NCBI GenBank assembly: GCA_016744995.1
Contig: JADGDG010000004.1
Span: 62,001 to 126,000 of the forward strand
Origin: Gammaproteobacteria bacterium
GTDB taxonomy: Bacteria > Pseudomonadota > Gammaproteobacteria > GRL18
Reading direction: 5' to 3'
Length of the DNA: 64,000 nucleotides
Shown here: positions 3,005 to 64,000 of the stretch, one piece after another
How the letters are laid out: each line of letters begins with the position of its first letter
How positions within the stretch are numbered: the first letter of the stretch is position 1
The notes under the pieces: generated by a model
What the model saw: only the letters and a program-made list of their open reading frames with translations
What the model was told of the DNA's origin: nothing
The model's database searches: none
Program-made: the position numbers and the translations under genes

Positions 3005-3943
3005 ATGTTTGAACACTTAAAAGAAGACATTCAGTGTGTTTTTGAGCGTGACCCTGCTGCGCGGAACTATTTTGAAGTATTAACGACCTATCCGGGTGTG
3101 CATGCGATGATATTTTATCGTATGAATAATCGTCTTTGGAACTGGAACCTGCAATGGCTGGCTCGCTTTTTTTCTTCGATGGCAAGACTATTTACCGGTA
3201 TTGAAATTCATCCGGGAGCAGAGATTGGTCGGCGTTTTTTTATTGATCATGGCATGGGTGTGGTGATTGGTGAAACAACTATCATCGGTGATGACTGCAC
3301 CCTATATCATGGAGTGACATTAGGCGGCACCTCCTGGGATAAAGGAAAACGCCACCCCACTCTTGGTAATGATGTAGTCGTGGGTGCTGGTGCAAAAGTT
3401 TTAGGACCCATCACTTTGGCAGATGGGTCGCGGGTGGGTTCTAATGCGGTCGTGGTAAAAGATGTACCGGAATCCTGTACGGTTGTCGGTATACCCGGCC
3501 GTGTGATTTCGAATCCGGGCAGCTCTCAAGAGAGCTCTGGAGCGGATACGGAAAAGAAGACGCATCCAAATGACGGAAAGCGTGAGAATATGGCTAAAAA
3601 AATTGGCTTTGATGCTTATGGAACATCCAGTGAAATGCCTGATCCAGTTGCTCATGCAATCAACTGCATGTTGGATCATATGCACTCAGTCGATGATAAG
3701 CTGGATAAAATGTGTACGGCAATTCGTTCTATTGACGCGGAGTTTCCAGAGATCAGCATCCCTGATGTCCACATTTGCGAGATAACACCAATTGATGAGC
3801 ATCCGGAAATCTGTCCTGCTCAGGATATTTGCAGTGGTGCTGTGGGAAATAAAGCTGAAGATAATGTTCACGTTGTTCATATGGATACGAAAATATCAGT
3901 TCGTTCCAGGATAAACTCGGCAAAAAATGATGATAATGAATAG
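3005..3943 (+). CDS. cysE: Serine O-acetyltransferase CysE with C-terminal extension
   Basis: Makes O-acetylserine from serine and acetyl-CoA, the precursor for cysteine and so for IscS. The left-handed beta-helix hexapeptide repeats run from about residue 60 to 165 ([38 protein letters not shown]). The catalytic His region [12 protein letters not shown] is intact. About 140 residues beyond the usual catalytic core are hydrophilic and Cys-containing; I do not recognise them. The ATG at 3005 is preferred over a GTG two codons upstream. Position directly ahead of iscR fits a role in feeding Fe-S assembly. Confidence 0.9.
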
Positions 3944-3962
3944 CTCTAAAGACCTTTTAAAA

Positions 3963-4028
3963 ATACTTGACTATAATGCTTGGTTATTCTAAAATATACT
4001 TGACTGAAACACTTGGTTATTTTAGACT
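3963..4028 (+). promoter_or_regulatory. Tandem IscR type-1 sites and promoters of the isc operon
   Basis: Two 25-bp sites start at 3963 and 3996, 33 bp apart. Both begin ATACTTGACT and end CTTGGTTAT; the left half matches the known IscR type-1 consensus (ATASYYGACTRWWWY) fully and the right half partly. Each contains a -35 TTGACT (3967-3972 and 4000-4005). The first has a -10 TAAAAT at 3990-3995 and the second TAGACT at 4023-4028, both with 17-bp spacers. The layout suggests autorepression by [2Fe-2S]-IscR. Confidence 0.75.
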
Positions 4029-4064
4029 CAACTAATAATTTTTTAAAAATATAGGAATAGACCA

Positions 4065-4571
4065 ATGAGATTGACCACAAAAGGACGCTATGCTGTTACA
4101 GCAATGTTGGATTTAGCGCTTCACTACGAACATGGCCCAATTACTTTGTCTGATATTTCTCAACGTCAGGAAATTTCTCTTTCTTATCTGGAGCAACTGT
4201 TCTCTAAGTTAAGAAAAAATGCATTGGTTGACAGTGCCAGAGGTCCGGGCGGCGGCTATCGTCTGAGCCGGCCTGCTGAAGACGTTGCTGTTGCTGAAAT
4301 TATTGCTGCAGTTGATGAGACCGTTGACGCGACACGCTGCAAGCGTAAGGGTAATTGTCAGCATGAAGAAAGATGTTTAACTCATGAACTCTGGTGTGAC
4401 CTGAGTGATCAAATTTTTGAGTTTCTGGCTAATATTTCATTGGGAAGCCTGGTTGAAAAACAGGCAGTTAGAGAAGTTGCCAAGCGCCAGGATGGCGTTA
4501 TGCCTATGAAGAGGAATAATATTGGATTGATTGAAGAGACATTAAAAGAGCCTGATGTAGCAGGGCTCTAA
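4065..4571 (+). CDS. iscR: Fe-S cluster assembly transcriptional regulator IscR
   Basis: 168-residue Rrf2-family winged-helix regulator. It holds a [2Fe-2S] cluster and represses the isc operon when cluster supply is sufficient. The start [20 protein letters not shown] and the [11 protein letters not shown] wing are characteristic. The ligands are three cysteines plus His in [20 protein letters not shown]. It is the first gene of the isc operon and sits behind two tandem IscR-like operators. A 117-nt spacer with two hairpins separates it from iscS. Confidence 0.96.
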
Positions 4572-4597
4572 AAGATTAATTGGATGCTTTTAAAAAC

Positions 4598-4664
4598 GGG
4601 TTGGTTGATACAACCTGTGTGACAGCATTTAAAAGTAAAGCAATGATCATCCCGAGGTGATCAT
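4598..4664 (+). promoter_or_regulatory. Two RNA hairpins between iscR and iscS
   Basis: First hairpin: GGTTG at 4599-4603 pairs with CAACC at 4611-4615. Second: ATGATCATC at 4643-4651 pairs with GGTGATCAT at 4656-4664 with one mismatch and a CCGA loop. In E. coli a structure in this gap allows iscR mRNA to be kept while iscSUA is degraded. A similar role here is inference. Confidence 0.45.
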
Positions 4665-4688
4665 GAAAATTGATGATAGGAATTAGTA

Positions 4689-5903
4689 ATGAGTTCACCA
4701 ATATATCTGGATTATTCAGCAACAACACCGGTTGATAAACGGGTTGCTGAAATAATGTGTCACTACCTTACGATGGATGGAACTTTTGGAAATCCGGCTT
4801 CACGTTCTCATAAATACGGTTGGGATGCTGAAACCGCTGTTGAAGAAGCAAGAGCAAATGTGGCTGCCTTGATTAATGCAGATGCTAAGGAAATTGTCTG
4901 GACATCGGGTGCGACTGAGTCGGATAATCTGGCAATTAAAGGTGCGGCACATTTCTATTCCAAACGTGGTAAGCACATTATTACATCCAAAACTGAACAT
5001 AAAGCAGTTCTGGATACCTGTCGCCAACTGGAACGTGAAGGTTATGAAGTCACATATCTTGATCCTGAAGAAGATGGGCTCATTGATATTTCTAAGCTTG
5101 AAGCTGCAATGCGCGACGATACTATTATAGTGTCTATTATGCATGTTAATAATGAAATTGGTGTTATTCAGGATATTGAAGCGATAGGCGAACTGTGCCG
5201 CTCAAGAAAAATAATTTTTCACGTTGATGCGGCTCAAAGTGCTGGCAAGACTGAAATTGATTTGAAAAAACTTAAAGTGGACTTATTATCACTTTCTGCC
5301 CATAAGGTTTATGGCCCAAAGGGAGTTGGTGCCTTATATGTACGTCGTAAACCAAGAATACGTATTGAAGCTCAAATGCATGGTGGTGGTCATGAACGTG
5401 GTATGCGTTCCGGCACACTGGCAACACATCAAATTGTCGGTATGGGTGAAGCCTTTAAAATTGCTAAAAAAGAAATGGCTGAAGAAAACAAGCGGATTCT
5501 GGCATTACGCGACCGTTTATTAAAAGGTTTTGAAAGCATGGAGGAGCTCTATGTGAATGGCAATCTGGAACATCGTGTGCCTCATAACCTGAATCTGAGC
5601 TTCAACTTTGTTGAAGGTGAGTCCTTATTGATGGCCATAGACTCTTTGGCGGTTTCTTCTGGTTCTGCCTGTACATCAGCAAGTCTGGAGCCTTCTTATG
5701 TGCTTAGAGCCATTGGTCGTAACGATGAATTAGCTCATAGTTCAATTCGTTTTAGTATTGGTCGTTTTACCACAGAGGAAGATGTTGACTACACTATTGG
5801 TTTATTGAAAGAGAAAGTGGATAAATTGAGATTGCTTTCACCACTATGGGATATGTACAAAGACGGTATTGATATCTCATCGATCCAGTGGAACGCACAT
5901 TAA
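4689..5903 (+). CDS. iscS: Cysteine desulfurase IscS
   Basis: 404-residue PLP enzyme that removes sulfur from cysteine and passes it as persulfide to IscU and tRNA-thiolation enzymes. [19 protein letters not shown] is the family start. The PLP-binding lysine lies in [12 protein letters not shown] and the mobile-loop catalytic Cys in [14 protein letters not shown]. The C-terminal SSIQWNAH, which contacts IscU, is present. It is followed at 52 bp by iscU. Confidence 0.97.
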
Positions 5904-5955: not shown

Positions 5956-6339
5956 ATGGCTTATAGTGATAAAGTAATGGATCATTATGAAAATCCACGT
6001 AACGTGGGTACTATGGATAATGATGAATCAGGTGTTGGCACTGGTATGGTCGGTGCACCAGCCTGTGGTGACGTGATGCGTTTACAGATCAAAGTTGATG
6101 AAAATGGTATTATTGAAGATGCTAAGTTTAAAACTTATGGTTGTGGTTCAGCAATTGCGTCCAGTTCGCTGGTGACGGAGTGGGTAAAAGGCAAAACTCT
6201 GGAAGAAGCCGGTCAAATTAAAAATACAGATATTGCAGAAGAACTGGCGCTGCCTCCTGTTAAAATTCATTGTTCAGTTCTGGCTGAAGATGCTATCAAA
6301 GCCGCAATTACTGATTATCAGGAAAAACAGCCCAGCTAA
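5956..6339 (+). CDS. iscU: Fe-S cluster scaffold protein IscU
   Basis: Scaffold on which IscS sulfur and iron are built into [2Fe-2S] clusters. The three ligand cysteines are visible in [20 protein letters not shown] and [12 protein letters not shown]. The HscA-recognition motif LPPVK is intact. The start at 5956 ([18 protein letters not shown]) is chosen over an ATG two codons upstream because it matches the family and has GAGG at a good distance. Confidence 0.97.
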
Positions 6340-6350
6340 AAGGTTTATTT

Positions 6351-6674
6351 ATGGCAATTACATTAACAGAAGCAGCAGCAAAACATGTAGTTCAGTTTAT
6401 TGACAATCGCGGCAAGGGTGAGGCATTACGTCTGGGCGTGAAAACCAATGGTTGCTCTGGAATGGGTTATGTTCTTGAATTTGCAGATAAAGTTGAAGAT
6501 GATGATAACGTTTTTGAGGACAAGGGTGTAAAAATCATTGTTGACCCCAAAAGCCTGATATACATTGACGGCACTGAACTGGACTATGGCCGTGAAGGTC
6601 TTAACGAAGGGTTCAAGTTTAATAACCCCAATGTTAAAGATGCTTGTGGCTGTGGTGAGAGTTTCAACGTCTAG
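6351..6674 (+). CDS. iscA: Iron-sulfur cluster assembly protein IscA
   Basis: 107-residue A-type carrier that delivers clusters to target apoproteins. The three conserved cysteines are in NGCSGMGY and the C-terminal CGCGESF. It lies 11 bp after iscU. Its last codons and stop form the first of three 24-bp tandem repeats (6654-6725), so the 3' end has been locally duplicated. Confidence 0.96.
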
Positions 6675-52154: not shown

Positions 52155-53030
52155 TTAAAATAACCAGGCTTTGATCTGATCAATATTTTCAAGGATAAGT
52201 TGTTGAGCTTCGGGGTGTTCTCTGGGAGTGGCATGGTCAATACGCAGATATTGAAGATAATAAGTGGCCAGAGCAGCCCGGGTGGATATCTCCAGTGCAC
52301 CATTGAGCATTCCATAATCACGCTCAATGATCATTTGTTGAAATTCGGTCAGTCTGGGATCGGGCACTATCCTTAAAGTTAACTGAGTATTCCAGGCAAT
52401 ATCATTTTTTATACCATTTTCAGAGGCTGAAACAGGCTCGGGAATATCATCGAATCGAGATAAGACAAAATCCCGGTAGTCATTATGCTTTTCACAATGC
52501 GCCCGAATATGCCAGCGATAACCAGAATAAACCAGAGTATGGGGAGTGATAACCCGGCTTTCAGAGCGACTGGAGGTAATGGACAGATACTCAATCTCAA
52601 TACGGGTCTGCTCACGGGATGCCTGAATAACGGGGCGTATAAAATGTGCCTTGACCTCACGATTGAGTGGGTAGATGACCTCGGTGTTGGCTTGTTGAAT
52701 ATCTAAATAAGCAAAATGACTGATCAGATCCCGCCGACTATTGAGTAAGTGCAAATATTCATCAACATCCCCTGAGGTTAAAACAGGTTTGAAATTGCTG
52801 CTTGGTTTATAGCCTTTTAATTGTTTGTCATACTCCAGATTTCCCTTGCCGATATCGCGAATATAACAATTAATATCTTTAGAAGCCTGTTGTCGCCCAA
52901 TACCAAAGGCAGTCATTAATGCATTGGTGGTCAAACGTCCTTCCCAGAGTGCAATAATTTCAATCAAGCGATAACGTAGTAACAGATCCCAACGAAAGGG
53001 CCATTGCTTGTTTGCGCCAGGGCGTGCCAT
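52155..53030 (-). CDS. WYL-domain transcriptional regulator
   Basis: 291 residues from the ATG at 53030, which follows AGGAA; longer starts would place the N-terminus over the operator. An N-terminal winged helix-turn-helix (RLIEIIALWEGRLTTNALMTAFGIGRQQASKDINCYI) is followed by a WYL domain (TRIEIEYLSITSS, ITPHTLVYSGYRWHIRAHCE, RDFVLSRFDDI) and a C-terminal extension. This is the layout of BrxR/CapW-type regulators of phage-defence operons. It is divergent from the HIRAN-cas operon and probably controls it and itself. Confidence 0.85.
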   Translation of the reverse strand: MARPGANKQWPFRWDLLLRYRLIEIIALWEGRLTTNALMTAFGIGRQQASKDINCYIRDIGKGNLEYDKQLKGYKPSSNFKPVLTSGDVDEYLHLLNSRRDLISHFAYLDIQQANTEVIYPLNREVKAHFIRPVIQASREQTRIEIEYLSITSSRSESRVITPHTLVYSGYRWHIRAHCEKHNDYRDFVLSRFDDIPEPVSASENGIKNDIAWNTQLTLRIVPDPRLTEFQQMIIERDYGMLNGALEISTRAALATYYLQYLRIDHATPREHPEAQQLILENIDQIKAWLF

Positions 53031-53075
53031 AAAAAATTCCTGCTCAGTTGATGTATCTGTATGAAAAAACGACAT

Positions 53076-53102
53076 GTACATGTATTCATCGTATACATGT
53101 AT
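53076..53102. promoter_or_regulatory. Palindromic operator pair between the WYL gene and the cas operon
   Basis: GTACATGTAT at 53076-53085 and ATACATGTAT at 53093-53102 share the palindrome TACATGTA and begin 17 bp apart. A possible cas-operon -10 (TAGTAT, 53112-53117) follows, with no good -35. They are the best candidate binding sites for the WYL protein; this is inference. Confidence 0.55.
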
Positions 53103-53165
53103 TTATTAAGGTAGTATGCTGATTGTCAAAGCCAAAGTCAATATCAACAGAAAAAGGAGAAAATT

Positions 53166-53558
53166 ATGAATAGCAGACGTTCATTTATGCAAAGTTTTTT
53201 TAGCCTGCCTTTGTTGTTTACCTTTAATCATAACAGCAAAGTACAAACAACAAAAAGTATTTTACTTAACCAGTGTTTAGTCGCAGGATTTCAATATTAT
53301 CAGGGCAAAGAAATAATATGGGATTTAAAGCAAAATGATCCAATACTTCTGCTTGCACAAGCTGATAATCAGTATGACAAGTATGCAGTTGAAGTTTTTT
53401 ATCAGAGTAAAAAACTTGGGTATCTTCCCAAAACTGACAACAAATCTATCAGTCAAATCTTACAGGCAGATATTAAAATTAGTGCTAAGGTACAGGCTGT
53501 TGATATTACAAAACCAGCCTGGAATGCAGTGATGGTTTCTATTTATATGTTGGTTTGA
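53166..53558 (+). CDS. HIRAN-domain protein with Tat-like signal
   Basis: 130 residues. The start MNSRRSFMQSFFSLPLLF has twin arginines followed by a hydrophobic stretch, as in Tat signal peptides. The rest is a HIRAN domain: LVAGFQYYQG, LAQADNQYDKYAVEVFYQSKKLGYLPK. HIRAN domains of known function bind DNA ends or stalled forks in the cytoplasm, so export would be surprising. AGGAG precedes the start. It is the first gene of the cas operon, 37 bp ahead of cas1. Confidence 0.8.
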   Translation: MNSRRSFMQSFFSLPLLFTFNHNSKVQTTKSILLNQCLVAGFQYYQGKEIIWDLKQNDPILLLAQADNQYDKYAVEVFYQSKKLGYLPKTDNKSISQILQADIKISAKVQAVDITKPAWNAVMVSIYMLV

Positions 53559-53595: not shown

Positions 53596-54564
53596 ATGAA
53601 AGATTTTTCACCCTCTGATCTAAAGGCAATCTTGCATTCCAAACGTGCCAATTTATATTATCTCGAACACTGTCGGGTTATGCAGAAAGATGGCAGGGTA
53701 CTTTATCTGACGGAAGAAAAAAAAGAAAAACAGTACTGGAACATTCCCATCGCCAATACCACCGTAATTTTATTGGGAACGGGCACCTCAATTACTCAGG
53801 CCGCAGTACGTATGCTTGCACAAGCTGGAGTTCTGATCGGTTTTTGTGGTGGCGGCGGCACACCGCTTTATATGAGTAATGAAATTGAGTGGGTGACCTC
53901 TCAAAGTGAATATCGCCCCACTCAATATTTGCAAGGCTGGTTATCATCATGGTTTGATGATGACTGGCGACTGCAAGCGGCGAAACAGTTTCAACATGCT
54001 CGCATGGAATACCTGAAACAGATCTGGACTAAAGATCGGGATTTAAAACAAGAAGGATTTAATACAGACGATGCAGGCCTTGAAGTAGCATTTAAACGCT
54101 TTAGTGAAAAAACAGATTTGGCCCAAAAACCATCTGCTCTGTTATTAACTGAAGCACAATTAACAAAAACACTCTACAAATTTGCTGCCAATCAAACCAA
54201 AATAGGGGATTTTACCCGCCAGCGAGAGGCCACAGATAAAGCCAATGCATTTTTAAATCATGGAAATTATCTGGCCTATGGTCTGGCGGCTACTACATTG
54301 TGGGTTTTAGGTATTCCTCATGGTTTTGCCGTCATGCATGGTAAAACCCGGCGTGGCGCATTGGTTTTTGATGTAGCTGATCTGATTAAAGATACCATCA
54401 TCCTACCCTGGGCCTTTGTGTGTGCTAAAGAAAATGCCACGGAACAGGAATTCCGTCAGCAATGCTTGCAGGCTTTTACCGATCATAAATCACTGGATTA
54501 TATGTTTGAGCAGGTTAAAGCTATCGCCCTGCAGGGGAAGACTGAGGAGGAAATCACCACATGA
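53596..54564 (+). CDS. cas1: CRISPR integrase Cas1 (type I-F)
   Basis: 322 residues. It inserts new spacers into the array together with Cas2 (here fused to Cas3). The active-site region is visible in GIPHGFAVMHGKTRRGALVFDVADLIKD, carrying the His and Asp ligands. The N-terminal YLEHCRVMQKDGRVLYL is typical of Cas1f. It overlaps cas2-3 by 4 bp. Confidence 0.96.
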   Translation: MKDFSPSDLKAILHSKRANLYYLEHCRVMQKDGRVLYLTEEKKEKQYWNIPIANTTVILLGTGTSITQAAVRMLAQAGVLIGFCGGGGTPLYMSNEIEWVTSQSEYRPTQYLQGWLSSWFDDDWRLQAAKQFQHARMEYLKQIWTKDRDLKQEGFNTDDAGLEVAFKRFSEKTDLAQKPSALLLTEAQLTKTLYKFAANQTKIGDFTRQREATDKANAFLNHGNYLAYGLAATTLWVLGIPHGFAVMHGKTRRGALVFDVADLIKDTIILPWAFVCAKENATEQEFRQQCLQAFTDHKSLDYMFEQVKAIALQGKTEEEITT

Positions 54565-57506
54565 TGGTTACCTTTATTTCCCAATGCGAAAAAAACGCCC
54601 TCAAGAAAACCCGCCGGGTACTGGATGCCTTCGCCAATCGCATTGGTGATAATGCCTGGCAAACGGTGATCACCAATGATGGTTTAAATACTGTTAAAAA
54701 AATGCTCAGGCAAACGGCTTCAAAAAATACAGCGGTTTCCTGTCACTGGATCAGGAGCCGTAGCCGATCGCAGTTTTTATGGGTGGTGGGTAATAAGGAT
54801 AAGTTTGATGGACAGGGTGTGGTGCCGGTGAATAGTACGCAGCAAGAAAATATATTACAAATGGATGAAATTAGTGTGGATATTAAAAAATATTACGCAA
54901 ATACAAAGAAGCAATCACTTGATCAGCATTTATTTGCAGTGGGTTATGTTGCTTATCGAATAATTAAACATTTTGTTGATGATGAAAAACTTGCAATGGC
55001 GGTATTTATCGCAGGTTGTCTGCATGATATTGGTAAGATTGATCCCGCTTTTCAAACTTGGATTATTGAAAAAGCAAAAAAGAAAATACTTGAAGAGCTG
55101 CCGGATGAAGGTGAGCATATTAAGAAGACAGGAAAATTTTCATTTGAAAAGCATCCCAGACATAATGAGATTTCAATGTTGCTGTATCATTTAATGGATG
55201 ATGATGACTATAAAAAAATAGTCAATAAAGAAAATAAAAAAAGAATAAAGCATGTACTCTATTGGCATCATGCAAAGCCCATTCGGAAATTAGAATTTAG
55301 GAAGCTTGATACAGTATATAAAAATTTGAAGAAAAATATTGGGCATTCAGAATTCTCTTCGATTACGGAGATATTTAAAAAAATTGTTGCAAGTGTAAAT
55401 TTAATTTCAAAGTCATATTTTTCTGACGAACCCTTATTACTCGAAGGTTTCCTGAATAAAGCAGATGAAGATAGAATTTATGAATTGGATGACACAAATT
55501 TGCCAACGTACAAGCGATATTCAGAATCTGATGATGATATTAGCGAATATTTGATATACATAAAAGAGAATGCAAAAAATAACCTTGCTCGCACTGCTGT
55601 AGTGACTGCAGATCGTTTAGTTTCAGCTCTGAGTAGTAAGGCATTAGATGATTATATAGAAGAATCAACACTAGATATTTTGTTTGAAACAGCTTTGTTA
55701 GAAGAACGTGGATTGAAGCGAGACTTAGAGTCCTGCATTGATAGGTTTATACAACGCTTTCCTGACAGTGAACGGAACAAGCAACAAGCTGAAGCTGTGC
55801 TAAATTTAGCAGAGAAAGAAGAGGGGCAAAGTGCTGTTAAAATTTTAAATGGGCCTGCTGGATGTGGTAAGACAAAAATTGCCTTGGAATGGGCTGCTAA
55901 AACTAATGCTAAAAAGATCATTTGGATTTGCCCACGAGTGCAAGTATGCCAAGGGTTAATCAATGACTTAACTGATTCTGATTATTTGCCTGATACTAAA
56001 ATTGAAATTAATACAGGTGAATTTAAATTGCTTTATCAATATGGGGATGATCCAGCTGAGACCCCTGAGGGAAAAGAATTTTCAGGTGATATTGTGATCA
56101 CAACGATAGATCAAATTACTAATTCCATTATCACTCATAATAGTGTAACTACCTTGGTTCATTATATGAATGCCCATGTAGTGTTTGATGAGTACCATGA
56201 ATATATCACCATGCCAGCGTTCAACTTATTTTTTGCCGAATTGGTAGAATGTAAAAAACTGCAAAAAGAAAAAGCAAATACTCTGCTCGTATCAGCTACT
56301 CCTAATTATTATTTTGTTGAAGAATTATTGGAAATTGATAGTGAAAATATCATTGGTACTGATAGTTTTAACCAGAGCCAATACAAAATTCAATTCACAG
56401 ACTTTGATGAGAGCAAGCAAGATGATACTAACCCCCTATATCAAGCTCTGTCAGATAATACTTTTGTTATTAGTAATACGGCAATAACGGCACAACAAAG
56501 CTTTATCAAGAATCAGAGCAGTGAGAATGCCATACTAATTCATTCAAAATTTAAGACTTCAGATAGAAAAGAACTCTTTGATCAAGTGTTTGATAGTTTT
56601 AAACGTGATGGAAGCAATAAATATCATGTATTGCGTGCGGGGCCGATTGTTCAGGCATCACTTAATATCACAAGTGATCAAATGATCACCGAGTTTACCA
56701 ATGCAGAAAATTGGTTGCAGCGCTTAGGGCGTCTGGATCGTTTTGGAGAAAACCAAAAGGTAAACTTATATGTCACTGCTGTACCAGAGACTATTTCAGA
56801 TACAGGGAAGCAAATAGGTGCTTGCGCCAGATTTCTAAGCCAGCTTCAGAGTTTTCAAAGTGCAAAAGTATGGCGTGAATTTTTATTGGATAAGCTATCA
56901 GAAGATACTGTAACGCTTACACAAATTTATCAGTGGTATCAAGATTTTTATGAGGATCAGAAATGCCGTGATGCTGTGGAACAAGATTTGATTAGTGCTT
57001 TAAAAAAGAGTGTTCAGGTCATTAGTAATAAATTAATTGATCCAATCTCATTTCCCAACAGAAAAAAACCTAAGGATAGTAAAGTAAAAATTTCAAAGAG
57101 TTCTTTACGCGGTGATAATCGCTTTGTACAAATGGCCCTATGCAACATAAATGGGCAAGGTAAACTTGATTTTCCAAATGACTATGCCTGTGAGGAAAAC
57201 AATATGGGAGGTAGTTTAACTGCTTCTGTAGAGCTTATTTGTGGCTATGGAGATAGTAAACAAGACTTATTGGGTTTCATGGTTAAAAAGCATCATAATA
57301 TTAAGGATGTGAAAAAATCTTATAAAGATAGCTTTACATTGAATGAAGCAAGAAACTTAGAAACCCCTATCTATTTGAGCTATATACCTGATGATCTGAA
57401 ACAGGTGAATGAAAGTCCACATTCTTATGCAATTTATTATGCAATAGGCAAGAAACAGCCTATTGGTGCAATCTCTATTAATAAACTAAAACCAGAGGAA
57501 GATTAA
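54561..57506 (+). CDS. cas2-3: Cas2-Cas3 fusion nuclease-helicase (type I-F)
   Basis: 981 residues. The N-terminal Cas2 domain covers about 1-95. The HD nuclease follows with [19 protein letters not shown] and VLYWHH. The helicase has Walker [10 protein letters not shown] (about 434), box II DEYH, motif [11 protein letters not shown] and motif [13 protein letters not shown]. It takes part in adaptation and shreds targets marked by the crRNA complex. The box II is DEYH rather than the more usual DExH with Val or Cys. All catalytic blocks look intact. Confidence 0.95.
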
Positions 57507-57507
57507 A

Positions 57508-58455
57508 ATGGAAAAAGTAACAGGAATAAAAAGTGTTGACTTCAAAATCAAAGCACTAGGACATGGTGTTGTGAACTGGAATGGACCAACAACTTTAACC
57601 GGAGATGGTGGTAAAACCGTAGATAACCATACTTTGCCAAAATTACGAGGTTACACAAATCTTACAGGAAAAGTGAAAGAAGATACGGGTTATCAATATA
57701 AAAAAGAAGCGACTGATATAGATTTTAAAAAAACACCATTGTATATCAGTCAAAACTGTATTCGCCATCACCTTTTTAGAGAGCAAGCTTTTGATATACA
57801 TTATGCAAAGAAGAATAATTTACAACAGATATTGGCTTCTATTACAGGTTTAATTCGTGGTTATGTTGTTCCTGCCAGTCAAAACAAACGCACCAGCCCA
57901 TTATTGATGGAAGATTTTGTTGATCAATTAGGAAATGGTAACTTTGAACAATTTGGTCAGGCAGGTGAACGTGATAGTTCTTCTTTCTTCTCAAAAACAA
58001 CATTTGGAGATACGGAGTACACTTCATATGGTTCAATAAGTATTGAACAACTACAGTTTATTGCACTGGATAAAAAATTTGATCGTGAAGCTATGGAAAT
58101 TAAAGAAGGGCAGGGAGAAGATGTTGCCCATGGTGTGCAAAACTTTATTCAGTCGCTCAATGAAGATTTAAATCCAGGTGCTACTTTCCATACCAATTAT
58201 GTGCGTAGAGGCACAATTTTTGAAGAAGGCGAAATGGGTATTTTATTGAATGATGATGCCATTAAAGCACTGGTTGAATATACTTTAGTACTTATTTCAG
58301 AACTATCCATACGACAAGCAAAATCTTATATGTATGTTGATGAAGTAACAGCTGATTATAATGATAGCAATAAAATGATGCGAATTAAACGTGATGAAAG
58401 TGATATCTCAGAACAGCCAGAGACAGGCTATGCCACTTATTTTTATTCTAAGTAG
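57508..58455 (+). CDS. cas7fv: Cas7fv backbone subunit of the I-F2 (I-Fv) complex
   Basis: 315 residues, starting [20 protein letters not shown]. This is the form of Cas7 found in the minimal Shewanella putrefaciens-type system rather than canonical Csy3: [25 protein letters not shown] and [23 protein letters not shown] are recognisable. It polymerises along the crRNA spacer. It starts 2 nt after cas2-3 and is followed by cas5fv. Confidence 0.88.
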
Positions 58456-58465
58456 GATGATGTTT

Positions 58466-59470
58466 ATGAAAATTTTAATAAAATATGAATCATCTTGGCG
58501 GAATTCATTTTTGGATGGTAGTAATAATAAACCATTACCAAAGAATGGCCGAAAATTTATTGGCTCAATGACCAATTTAAGAAAAGCTGAGAATTTCATA
58601 CAGCGTGAAGTGACGTTAGATACCATTATGGGAATTTTAAATCGTCTTATAGGTGATCAAAGAAAACTCTATCAAGCGAGAAATGAAAAAAATTATTTTT
58701 TCAAGGAAATTGAGTCACTAATTAAGTATAAAGATAGTCCATCTCATACAAATAGTGAGATGACCTATATCCGTAATATTACGGGTAGTACTGATCAAAA
58801 TTCATACACTGGTATGATTAAAATACATGATGAAATGTTTTCCTCAGATTATTCTCCTGAGCTTTGGGGAGTTCTTGCTTTGGATTTTGATGAATTATGT
58901 CAATTTATTATTGAAGATATTGATGTGAAAAAAGTGATTGAAATGAACCCATTGAGTATTATTTCAAGACTAGAAGAGCTGAATAAAGAAAAGCCTGTTT
59001 CTAATAATGGGCAAGCAAAAAAAGCAATGGATGAGCTGCATAAATTTCTTCCTGATATTACTTATCTAAATAAAAAAGAGGAGATTGTTCCCATCAGCCT
59101 ATATTGTTCAGGGTTATATTTGCAGTTAGAACGACTAACAAAAAATTTTGATATGAGTTCTGCAAAAACAAAAAGTGGAGCCATCAGTGGTATTTCAAAG
59201 CGGGGCTTTACTAAAAAGGATTTTATGAATCGATTCACTTCGGGTGAAAAGAAAAAAATCTGGGGAAACCCCTATATTCGTAAAGAAAGAATCAAAGGTG
59301 TTGGTGAGGTGACTTCCCTATTAACTAAGGCAAGTGGTACTTTAGAAGTAGATATTCCAGTAGAAAGAACAAAGGGAAAAGAAATTAAAAGTATGATTGA
59401 GTGTGCAGGTGTTTCCAGTTTTTACTTAGGTAAAAAAGGACTTGCCTATGTCTTAAAAATTCGTGTTTAA
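58466..59470 (+). CDS. cas5fv: Cas5fv subunit of the I-F2 (I-Fv) complex
   Basis: 334 residues. [21 protein letters not shown] is the typical start; the frame is open further upstream, but AGGA lies 8 nt before the ATG at 58466. In the characterised I-Fv complex Cas5fv carries an added helical domain that reads the PAM and replaces the large subunit; the middle part here (about 90-220) is helical and could be that domain. No cas8f is present. Confidence 0.87.
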
Positions 59471-59483
59471 ATCTGGAGTAATT

Positions 59484-60035
59484 ATGGATCATTATATAGA
59501 TATACAAATTAAGCCTGATGCTGAAATGCGTGAAAATGTATTACTCAATAAAGTTTATACCAAATTTCATAAGGCTTTATTTTTCTTAAAATCAACGGAT
59601 ATTGGTATTAGTTTTCCTAGGTACAAAGTATTACTGGGAAATATTGTTCGCATACATGGCACTGAAAGCAGGTTGTTGGAATTACAAAATACAAATTGGT
59701 TAGGTGGTTTGTCAGGTTACTGTAAAATGGCAAAAATACAAGCAATACCTAATGATGTGAGTTATCGTACTATCTCTCGTAAACAAGCAAATATGACTAT
59801 GGCAAAGCTTAGGCGTTTACTCAAACGAGGCTCAATCTCTGTTCAAGAAGCCAAGAAATATAAGGCCAAAATGCATACTCAGAGCTTAGATAATCCTTTC
59901 TTTGAACTGAATAGTACATCAAATGGTAATACTCATCGACGCTATATTGAATTTGGTGAATTTCAGAATTTTCCTGCAATGGGTAAATTTGATTTTTTTG
60001 GTTTAAGCAAACAAGCAACAGTTCCCTGGTTTTAG
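59484..60035 (+). CDS. cas6f: CRISPR RNA endonuclease Cas6f (Csy4)
   Basis: 183 residues from the ATG at 59484, which has GGAG upstream. It cuts the repeat hairpin to release crRNAs with the 8-nt handle. The catalytic His is at residue 29 (VYTKFHKAL), the same position as in Csy4. A basic arginine-rich helix (MAKLRRLLKRGS) that could grip the hairpin follows at about 106. The C-terminal GKFDFFGLSKQATVPWF is typical. Confidence 0.93.
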   Translation: MDHYIDIQIKPDAEMRENVLLNKVYTKFHKALFFLKSTDIGISFPRYKVLLGNIVRIHGTESRLLELQNTNWLGGLSGYCKMAKIQAIPNDVSYRTISRKQANMTMAKLRRLLKRGSISVQEAKKYKAKMHTQSLDNPFFELNSTSNGNTHRRYIEFGEFQNFPAMGKFDFFGLSKQATVPWF

Positions 60036-60643: not shown

Positions 60644-63600
60644 GTTCACTGCCGTACAGGCAGCTTAGAAAGTCTTGGTAGATAGATTTGGGTATGACTG
60701 AAAGTTCACTGCCGTACAGGCAGCTTAGAAATGTTTCTTCTGGTCTAAAGTTTTCAAACATACGTTCACTGCCGTACAGGCAGCTTAGAAAATTGATTGA
60801 AATATTCAACGCTTCACTCGCCAGTTCACTGCCGTACAGGCAGCTTAGAAATAATTGAAGCGTTACTGTGTGGTGGTCTTAGTGTTCACTGCCGTACAGG
60901 CAGCTTAGAAAAGCCCCGTACTTAACCCCAATTTTTTCGAACAGTTCACTGCCGTACAGGCAGCTTAGAAATATTAATGCAAGATGCGCAGATAGCAGTC
61001 ACGGTTCACTGCCGTACAGGCAGCTTAGAAAATAAGATTTTCCTGTTCCAGTCAGACCTGAATGTTCACTGCCGTACAGGCAGCTTAGAAATCTATAGCC
61101 AGCATGAGACGAAAATTTCTTTAGTTCACTGCCGTACAGGCAGCTTAGAAATATTAGGCCATGACACAATTACTAAAAATATAGTTCACTGCCGTACAGG
61201 CAGCTTAGAAAGTAATCGCGATGAAACATCCTTCTGGGCAAACGTTCACTGCCGTACAGGCAGCTTAGAAAAGTGATTAAACGTAACATTGCTGGCCTCT
61301 ATAGTTCACTGCCGTACAGGCAGCTTAGAAAATTATTATTACCACCGCCACCCGGATTACCACGTTCACTGCCGTACAGGCAGCTTAGAAAATTTGATAT
61401 AACACAAATTGACCCGTTAATTGGTTCACTGCCGTACAGGCAGCTTAGAAAATCAAAATCGTATAATCTATCTTCAATTAATTGTTCACTGCCGTACAGG
61501 CAGCTTAGAAAAACAAGAAACATCATTTACATTCACATTAAACGTTCACTGCCGTACAGGCAGCTTAGAAATGATTAGGTTGCGCAGCACCAACTGAATT
61601 TAAGTTCACTGCCGTACAGGCAGCTTAGAAAGCTATTTTATCGATTTCTGATAACGTTAAATCGTTCACTGCCGTACAGGCAGCTTAGAAAATCAACGCA
61701 TTGGGCGTTAGAAAGCACATCCCGTTCACTGCCGTACAGGCAGCTTAGAAATTCAATTTCACCAATGAATCCAGTAAGACGTTGTTCACTGCCGTACAGG
61801 CAGCTTAGAAAGGTATTTCTGTTGGTAAAAGTATATACCTTGAGTTCACTGCCGTACAGGCAGCTTAGAAATATATGTGATAACGTGGGATCCTTCCTGC
61901 TCAGTTCACTGCCGTACAGGCAGCTTAGAAAAGCACGGTGTCAACAAAGCCACTCACTTGACTGTTCACTGCCGTACAGGCAGCTTAGAAATGATCCTAC
62001 ATTTGGTTTTTTAAACTATGTTGGTTCACTGCCGTACAGGCAGCTTAGAAATTTGATTATTGACTTAAAATCATTAGGCACAGGTTCACTGCCGTACAGG
62101 CAGCTTAGAAAGTTATCTTGGGTGATTGTTGAGTTTGGTGTTAATTCACTGCCGTACAGGCAGCTTAGAAAATCATTTCCCCCTCCACCACCATCGTTCC
62201 CACGTTCACTGCCGTACAGGCAGCTTAGAAAAAAAAACCAAACAAAGTAAAATAAACAATTAAGTTCACTGCCGTACAGGCAGCTTAGAAATTTTGATGG
62301 TTCGGGTGCTGACGCCCAGTGTTGTTCACTGCCGTACAGGCAGCTTAGAAACTCTAATAAATTATTAAAGAGCTTGAAACCTTGTTCACTGCCGTACAGG
62401 CAGCTTAGAAAAATTAGAAGCCGACCTTTCATATTCCATTTTAGTTCACTGCCGTACAGGCAGCTTAGAAAAAGACCCGCCGCTTTTCTGACTAGCATTC
62501 CCCGTTCACTGCCGTACAGGCAGCTTAGAAAATTGGGCGTATCACTGCAGTGAATAATAATTTGTTCACTGCCGTACAGGCAGCTTAGAAAATTCACAAC
62601 CTGCGGCACATACGACAAAATGAGTTCACTGCCGTACAGGCAGCTTAGAAATTCGGGTATTATGTATGGCTTGTTCGCTGGCAGTTCACTGCCGTACAGG
62701 CAGCTTAGAAAAGAATGAATGTGTGTCCATTTTGTTTGTATAAGTTCACTGCCGTACAGGCAGCTTAGAAATCCTACAGAAAAAATCCCTCCTCCTACAG
62801 AAAGTTCACTGCCGTACAGGCAGCTTAGAAATTCCTTTCTTAAGCAAAACATGACTGTATCTTGTTCACTGCCGTACAGGCAGCTTAGAAACGAATAGAA
62901 TAAAGCGTCCATCAGGTGGGGTTGTTCACTGCCGTACAGGCAGCTTAGAAAATCTGTAAAATCACCGTCACCGATAGTTACCAGTTCACTGCCGTACAGG
63001 CAGCTTAGAAAGTCGACTTGGCGCGGGCTTGTAATGTTATTAAGTTCACTGCCGTACAGGCAGCTTAGAAAATCATTTCTAATTTAGTCGTAGTGAATTT
63101 AATGTTCACTGCCGTACAGGCAGCTTAGAAATACTGATAATATTATTTTTCCGTCAGCCATTAGTTCACTGCCGTACAGGCAGCTTAGAAATCTGTAACC
63201 TGCATGAGACGAGAATTTTTTTAGTTCACTGCCGTACAGGCAGCTTAGAAAGTCAAGCCAAAACTCAACACCTCGATTATCTTGTTCACTGCCGTACAGG
63301 CAGCTTAGAAATTGCGCCAAATCCGCCAATTCACTCATCAACCGTTCACTGCCGTACAGGCAGCTTAGAAACGTATTTAGATTCAGATGACAATCCCACA
63401 ATCGTTCACTGCCGTACAGGCAGCTTAGAAAAGTTCAGCACTGGGCGTCAGCACCCGAACCATGTTCACTGCCGTACAGGCAGCTTAGAAAAAATAGAAC
63501 AACGGTTAACGTTGGTGGCTTTAGTTCACTGCCGTACAGGCAGCTTAGAAAATTAATTGAAATATTCAATGCTTCACTTGCTAGTTCACTGCCGTACAGG

Positions 63601-64000
63601 CAGCTTAGAAATTTGACGCTAAAGAAGCGGCCGCAGGTATAAAGTTCACTGCCGTACAGGCAGCTTAGAAAATATTCGCCACATCACCCAAAGCGTTTAA
63701 TATGTTCACTGCCGTACAGGCAGCTTAGAAATATTTCCTTGGATTTAATGCTGCAGGTGATGAGTTCACTGCCGTACAGGCAGCTTAGAAATTAAAAGTG
63801 GTTGTTCGTCTTGCATTTAATGCGTTCACTGCCGTACAGGCAGCTTAGAAAATTTTATTTAGCTCGTTAATTGCCCGAATAACGTTCACTGCCGTACAGG
63901 CAGCTTAGAAATTTAGCGACAACTTTGTACGTATTATATGCCCGTTCACTGCCGTACAGGCAGCTTAGAAACGTAGTTGGGGGCCGGGGATCGACAAAAT
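60644..64000 (+). CRISPR. Type I-F CRISPR array, at least 56 repeats, continuing past the window
   Basis: The 28-nt repeat is GTTCA, then hairpin CTGCC-GTACA-GGCAG, then CTTAGAAA. The last eight bases become the crRNA 5' handle, so transcription is on the plus strand. Repeats start at 60644 and then every 60 bp to 63944: 56 repeats, 55 complete spacers of exactly 32 nt and one partial. All repeats look identical except the 26th (62144), whose first base is A. The distal end is not seen. Confidence 0.99.

Follow-up and report, generated by a model that had tools for sequence, protein, structure and literature searches.

What does a gene for a HIRAN-domain protein with an apparent export signal do at the head of a CRISPR-cas operon? 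The question is raised by a stretch of 64,000 nucleotides (the window) from a Gammaproteobacteria bacterium (assembly GCA_016744995.1, contig JADGDG010000004.1, positions 62,001 to 126,000), in which such a gene lies on the plus strand at 53166..53558, directly upstream of cas1. The original prediction described a HIRAN protein with an RR motif and a hydrophobic segment resembling a twin-arginine translocation (Tat) signal, encoded 37 bp before cas1, and proposed that an envelope-located protein of this kind could meet incoming phage DNA, feed adaptation or act as an accessory. Our tentative answer, possible but held with caution, is that HIRAN is an optional accessory of WYL-regulated type I CRISPR operons, predicted to be Tat-exported and to act on entering DNA.

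The HIRAN gene and its linkage to cas operons

The 53166-53558 open reading frame (ORF) begins with ATG, preceded 6 nt upstream by a GGAG ribosome-binding-like sequence, and encodes 130 residues, with a predicted signal at approximately residues 1-25 and the HIRAN domain at approximately 31-130. The protein matches Pfam HIRAN PF08797 with 46.7 bits (E 2.8e-12; curated cut-off 24.7), and 37 bp separate its stop (53558) from the cas1 ATG (53596), so that both the domain and its placement were predicted correctly. It is the sole HIRAN gene found in its own genome, and the window locus is the only Cas1 locus found there. HIRAN identity is 47-54% where Cas1 retains ~84%. The dN/dS (nonsynonymous to synonymous substitution rate) values of HIRAN pairs in WYL/cas contexts are 0.14-0.32, against ~0.05 for cas1, 0.12-0.18 for WYL and 0.08 for xseA, all rough because several dS exceed 1; as judged from these sequence comparisons, purifying selection on the window HIRAN fold is supported.

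In an even draw of the class, a HIRAN match was obtained in 22 of the 369 genomes; for 11 of these 22, cas genes are no more than about 3.5 kb away from HIRAN. A type I locus makes up an estimated 1% or so of such a genome, which predicts almost no linkage by chance, and therefore the HIRAN-cas association goes beyond chance. The class loci, with representative Cas3 types confirmed by PADLOC models, belong to I-F2 (the window and L038), I-F/I-F1 (L034, L047, L050), I-E (L035, L037 and the decayed L051), I-C (L036) and I-G (L033, L040). A genome-collection scan with a four-row alignment of close relatives gave 53 loci and added WYL-HIRAN-cas arrangements in I-C (L091, L098, L109, L136) and I-G (L108), together with L093, which has a Cas3. 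L102, L137 and L142 are among the loci cut short by contig ends. Where HIRAN heads I-C, I-E, I-F1, I-F2 or I-G operons, a WYL regulator nearly always stands alongside, and in most complete WYL-HIRAN loci the cas genes follow directly downstream in the same direction.

The association is neither specific to I-F2 nor universal in it. Cas1f exceeded the cut-off in 42 of the 369 genomes, with HIRAN next to or near about 5 of these loci or fragments, and HIRAN is a minority accessory among Cas1f loci. Among six I-F2 loci, HIRAN is adjacent in two, 3.3 kb upstream in one and missing from three. Specificity to I-F2 was rejected, given the I-C, I-E, I-F1 and I-G operons that HIRAN also heads; the co-occurrence expected with I-F2 thus held as recurrence beside cas operons in many genomes, but not as a property of that subtype.

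HIRANs without WYL or cas fall mainly into two groups, betaproteobacterial and Thiodiazotropha. The betaproteobacterial ones mostly have signal-peptide-like N-termini, and many follow closely on a DinG/YoaA-like helicase gene, as at L121:4645-6993 (helicase-HIRAN gap of 31 bp) and in L111, L118, L126, L129, L131, L132, L134 and L135, all from Betaproteobacteria (Hydrogenophilales, Thiobacillaceae and others) and without cas genes. No relatives were found among viral contigs, and plasmids gave just three distant ones. Phage records (Pseudomonas, Xanthomonas and others; e.g., JQ067089.2, 34189-34425) do encode HIRAN proteins, which match mainly in the domain region.

Some HIRAN loci carry additional genes. 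A SWIM zinc-finger protein is encoded between the Tat-HIRAN and cas3 of an I-E operon (L037:2809-3306), and in L097, where no cas genes were found, the WYL-HIRAN pair is followed ~0.7 kb on by a SWIM/SNF2 helicase. The 3'-terminal part of the long I-G cas3 ORF of L040 contains, in another frame, a second, partial HIRAN-like stretch (5307-5690; the same as L105:13744-14127). In L098 two HIRAN genes (4303-4692 and 6118-6510) flank the WYL gene before the I-C operon; the signal is Sec-like in one of them and Tat-like in the other. In the WYL-HIRAN-cas locus L093, cas3 is immediately followed by a gene (3422-4198) for a sigma-70-like protein with regions 2 and 4; the record of this locus is titled as an Archaeoglobi metagenome-assembled genome and is possibly a mis-binned contig. 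A 296-residue protein without Pfam match is encoded between cas1 and cas2-3 of the I-F1 operon of L150 (10724-11614).

Predicted export and the putative DNA-end pocket

The N-terminus of the window HIRAN, MNSRRSFMQSFFSLPLLFTFNHNSK, fits the Tat pattern: SRRSFMQ at residues 3-9 matches the strict rule ([RK]R-x-hydrophobic-hydrophobic-[KQRNS] close to the start codon) and is followed by 19 uncharged residues with a best 11-residue mean hydropathy of 1.7. TatC is encoded in the same genome (PF00902, E 1.2e-69). About 22 of the 28 WYL/cas-linked HIRANs have the strict motif, compared with 0 of 48 others and 5 of 727 background ORFs from the retrieved loci, counts that are inflated by the relatedness of the sequences; the initial tally was 21/27 against 1/49, before L056 was regrouped as linked, its WYL gene having been seen directly upstream. 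Two linked copies fall narrowly outside the rule: L128 has RRAFLA, and in L047 a textbook signal, MSRRTFLKSITALLGGLALPAITQA, and the HIRAN domain lie in different frames. Given the counts, a chance RR motif was ruled out.

The RR/KR-x-F-L-K pattern is kept among homologues that are just 36-53% identical and is missing from the non-linked HIRANs. On a maximum-likelihood tree (103 columns, many forks unresolved) the label can be explained by 5 changes, compared with 19 when labels are shuffled. The motif and hydrophobic segment claimed for the window copy are thus present, and most WYL/cas-linked relatives keep a Tat-like signal, which the other HIRANs lack. The window HIRAN is probably exported by Tat, and as a prediction its localization outside the cytoplasm is well supported by the comparison.

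The AlphaFold2 model of the domain (predicted local distance difference test, pLDDT, above 95) was matched by Foldseek to L. plantarum lp_0118 (3k2y, E 2.8e-7) and human HLTF (4s0n, E 5.7e-6). VIA Z scores were 16.2 to lp_0118 and ~12 (12.1) to the DNA-bound HLTF HIRAN, the next group scoring 6.5; matches to Cas12f, Cas12k and SmpB (Z 4-6.5) were set aside as a common barrel arrangement. HLTF Y72, N91, Y93 and D94, of which Y72 and Y93 have a described role in the HIRAN pocket (PMC4666394), align with Y44, N68, Y70 and D71 of the window protein. Among 30 aligned HIRANs, D71 is invariant (30/30), N68 is kept in 28, position 44 is aromatic or His in all 30 and position 70 in 29. Because these equivalents are mostly kept and the model matches the DNA-bound HLTF, binding of DNA ends by HIRANs of the window type is plausible.

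Regulation, modularity and rival explanations

Divergently from HIRAN, on the minus strand (52155..53081), lies a gene for a BrxR/CapW-type WYL transcription regulator (PF13280), with a probable start at 53030 (MARPGANKQW), supported by a same-genus copy that begins at MARPG. Its product matches BrxR (7t8k, E 1.2e-58, residues 31-282, full-length with helix-turn-helix and WYL) and CapW (7tb6, E 3.6e-43). Between the two genes we detected a putative unstranded WYL operator, GACATGTACATGTATTCATCGTATACATGTA (53071..53101), with a 9-bp perfect inverted repeat arranged as TACATGTAT-N7-ATACATGTA (53077-53085 and 53093-53101). Similar inverted repeats are bound by BrxR, and CRISPR makes up 21 of the 210 (10%) defence systems with which BrxR homologues are associated (PMC9122601). 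The candidate -10 element of the HIRAN-cas promoter, TATGCT (53115..53120, plus strand), is conserved in the alignment (AGTATGCT/AGTATGAT); a consensus promoter scan of the plus strand upstream of HIRAN scored no promoter, TATGCT included.

Members of the window family share the divergent WYL gene (58-70% identity with the window copy) and a Tat/KR HIRAN (36-53%), and this cassette precedes an I-C operon (L148), an I-F1 operon (L150), an I-F cas1 where the contig ends (L149) and an I-F2 operon (L151). The operator footprint is kept in L149 (I-F), L148 (I-C), L150 (I-F1 variant), L051 (decayed I-E) and the HIRAN-less genome G373; in the form GACATGT-N-CATCGTATACA it precedes HIRAN in several window-family loci as well as the decayed copy at an I-E locus. 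The operator of L148 has stayed with HIRAN, a transposase-like insertion now lying between operator and WYL gene. These arrangements support a modular regulator-operator-HIRAN cassette that stands ahead of at least five subtypes of cas operon.

According to the tentatively favoured accessory reading, the BrxR-type WYL regulator would repress the shared promoter, and infection or DNA damage would release this repression, co-inducing HIRAN and cas. The folded HIRAN would be exported by Tat to the periplasm or the outer face of the inner membrane, where it may bind 3' ends that are exposed as phage or plasmid DNA enters and slow this entry, as a layer parallel to Cas interference and not a part of Cas1-Cas2. 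Cas1 is cytoplasmic, and the known type I CRISPR machinery acts in the cytoplasm, so the proposed feeding of adaptation is hard to square with export, unless the exported HIRAN acts independently of Cas1; a direct role in Cas1-Cas2 adaptation would need a cytoplasmic protein. A wider proposal, that many Pseudomonadota possess a periplasmic CRISPR arm before I-C, I-E, I-F and I-G systems, in which a Tat-exported HIRAN, co-induced with cas through WYL, binds incoming 3' ends and either impedes entry or makes the DNA ready for interference or adaptation, we regard as rather unlikely.

Several observations weigh against the accessory reading: no precedent for DNA binding in the periplasm is known to us from the HIRAN family, the altered pocket positions and the missing signals described below bear on DNA binding and export, and a further set concerns dispensability. 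Genome G373, of the same genus, retains WYL, operator and promoter region followed by cas1, with HIRAN precisely missing from its I-F2 operon. Compared with window positions 53596-58915, its locus (L156, G373:C82) is 100% identical over more than 3 kb of the cas2-3 to cas5fv region, from ~55600, while the upstream flank is 76-94% identical, indicating that the cas operon was recently exchanged between the two genomes; cas genes therefore move between settings with and without HIRAN. HIRAN copies are broken in L047, L050 and L051, which together with G373 argues that HIRAN is dispensable. Two further I-F2 loci (L052, L054) have the WYL gene without HIRAN, and together with G373 they ruled out an indispensable part of the I-F2 operon. 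The original prediction thus captured something real; the phenomenon extends further than it claimed, to many type I subtypes and a WYL partner, and HIRAN is less essential than it suggested.

In L097, L099 and L128 a WYL-HIRAN pair has no cas genes in its vicinity, and the same holds for L056, where WYL stands directly upstream of HIRAN. These loci, the constancy of the HIRAN cassette while cas types vary within the window family, and the swap of cas2-3/cas7 between HIRAN-plus and HIRAN-minus genomes would fit a HIRAN that belongs with WYL rather than with CRISPR, as a stand-alone exported stress or defence unit downstream of which cas operons insert for its inducible promoter. This explanation appears somewhat unlikely, as it requires five subtypes to have inserted independently at the same place, and most complete WYL-HIRAN loci do have same-direction cas genes directly downstream.

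Two other explanations question the location or the ligand. The RR segment could be an inefficient signal or a tether, leaving HIRAN in the cytoplasm or on the inner face of the membrane, where it would help Cas1-Cas2 or Cas3 with DNA ends during adaptation or post-interference repair. This would fit the binding of 3' DNA ends by nuclear HIRAN proteins and the lack, by eye, of a clear AxA site in the window copy; the KR variants of L149 and L150 are weaker Tat motifs, and L109, L136 and L142 are WYL-linked without any signal, so that export is not essential everywhere; L109 and L136 head I-C operons and keep this explanation open. We consider it improbable, however, given the retention of RR/KR-x-F-L-K at such low identity and its absence from non-linked HIRANs, the AxA-type sites in the relatives L035, L036 and L040 (an AxA-like site is also present in L047) and the predicted-exported relatives in Betaproteobacteria. 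An exported protein could alternatively have re-used its barrel for an envelope ligand (peptide, glycan or phage injection protein) instead of DNA, consistent with its fast divergence relative to Cas1, with related predicted-exported HIRANs in non-CRISPR contexts and with two altered pocket positions, HLTF R71 being replaced by Q (26/30) and H110 mostly by Y, both in the window protein as well. The conserved D94, N91 and Y72 equivalents and the superposition of the model on DNA-bound HLTF nevertheless make a non-DNA ligand very unlikely.

The I-F2 operon, known systems and significance

Downstream of HIRAN, all on the plus strand, follow cas1 (Cas1fv, 53596..54564, PADLOC E 4.3e-180), the cas2-3 fusion (Cas3fv, 54561..57506, PADLOC 1382 bits), cas7fv (57508..58455, NF040577 E 3e-146), cas5fv (58391..59470, PF20158 E 3.4e-68; the actual start is likely further downstream than the ORF start, the PADLOC Cas5fv match beginning at residue 26) and cas6f (Csy4, 59463..60035, PF09618 E 3.6e-59). 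A CRISPR array with a 60-bp period (60644..64000, plus strand) extends past the window end. The presence of Cas7fv, the Cas5fv helical domain, Cas6f and Cas2-3 and the absence of Cas8f assign the locus to type I-F2 (I-Fv), with the standard cas1, cas2-3, cas7fv, cas5fv and cas6f plus array; it differs from that type by HIRAN as an extra first gene and by the divergent WYL gene.

The HIRAN domain, BrxR/CapW regulators, I-F2 systems and BrxR homologues beside CRISPR were already known. Human HLTF, yeast Rad5 and lp_0118 share the domain and fold with the window protein, which keeps most of the key pocket residues; HLTF and Rad5 are nuclear helicases, whereas the window HIRAN is stand-alone, has a Tat-type signal, stands in a cas operon and has the R71 and H110 equivalents replaced by Q and Y. 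The window WYL protein is a clear homologue of the BrxR/CapW regulators with a similar inverted repeat, but presumably controls a HIRAN-cas operon, and HIRAN is unmentioned in PMC9122601. Geobacter sulfurreducens GSU0050 is annotated as HIRAN (PMC7962754) and is numbered next to GSU0051, which names the type I-G Cas3 model TIGR02621, a resemblance to the HIRAN genes beside I-G cas3; the available part of PMC7962754 discusses no link of GSU0050 to CRISPR. HIRAN is absent from the 2025 CRISPR classification, and we found no published description of HIRAN as a CRISPR accessory in the open-licence literature, although prior mention elsewhere is possible.

The same I-F2 cas genes with HIRAN in the window and without it in G373 offer a natural comparison, and a WYL-HIRAN-I-G locus is present in isolates, Solimonas aquatica DSM 25927 among them. 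The comparison of these loci adds evidence that BrxR-type WYL regulators may govern CRISPR operons of several subtypes via a conserved putative operator. If the accessory reading is true, a conserved exported protein before five cas subtypes, under the same regulator, would place a CRISPR component at the envelope, where phage DNA enters; in some bacteria CRISPR immunity may then be coupled to a guard protein located outside the cytoplasm.
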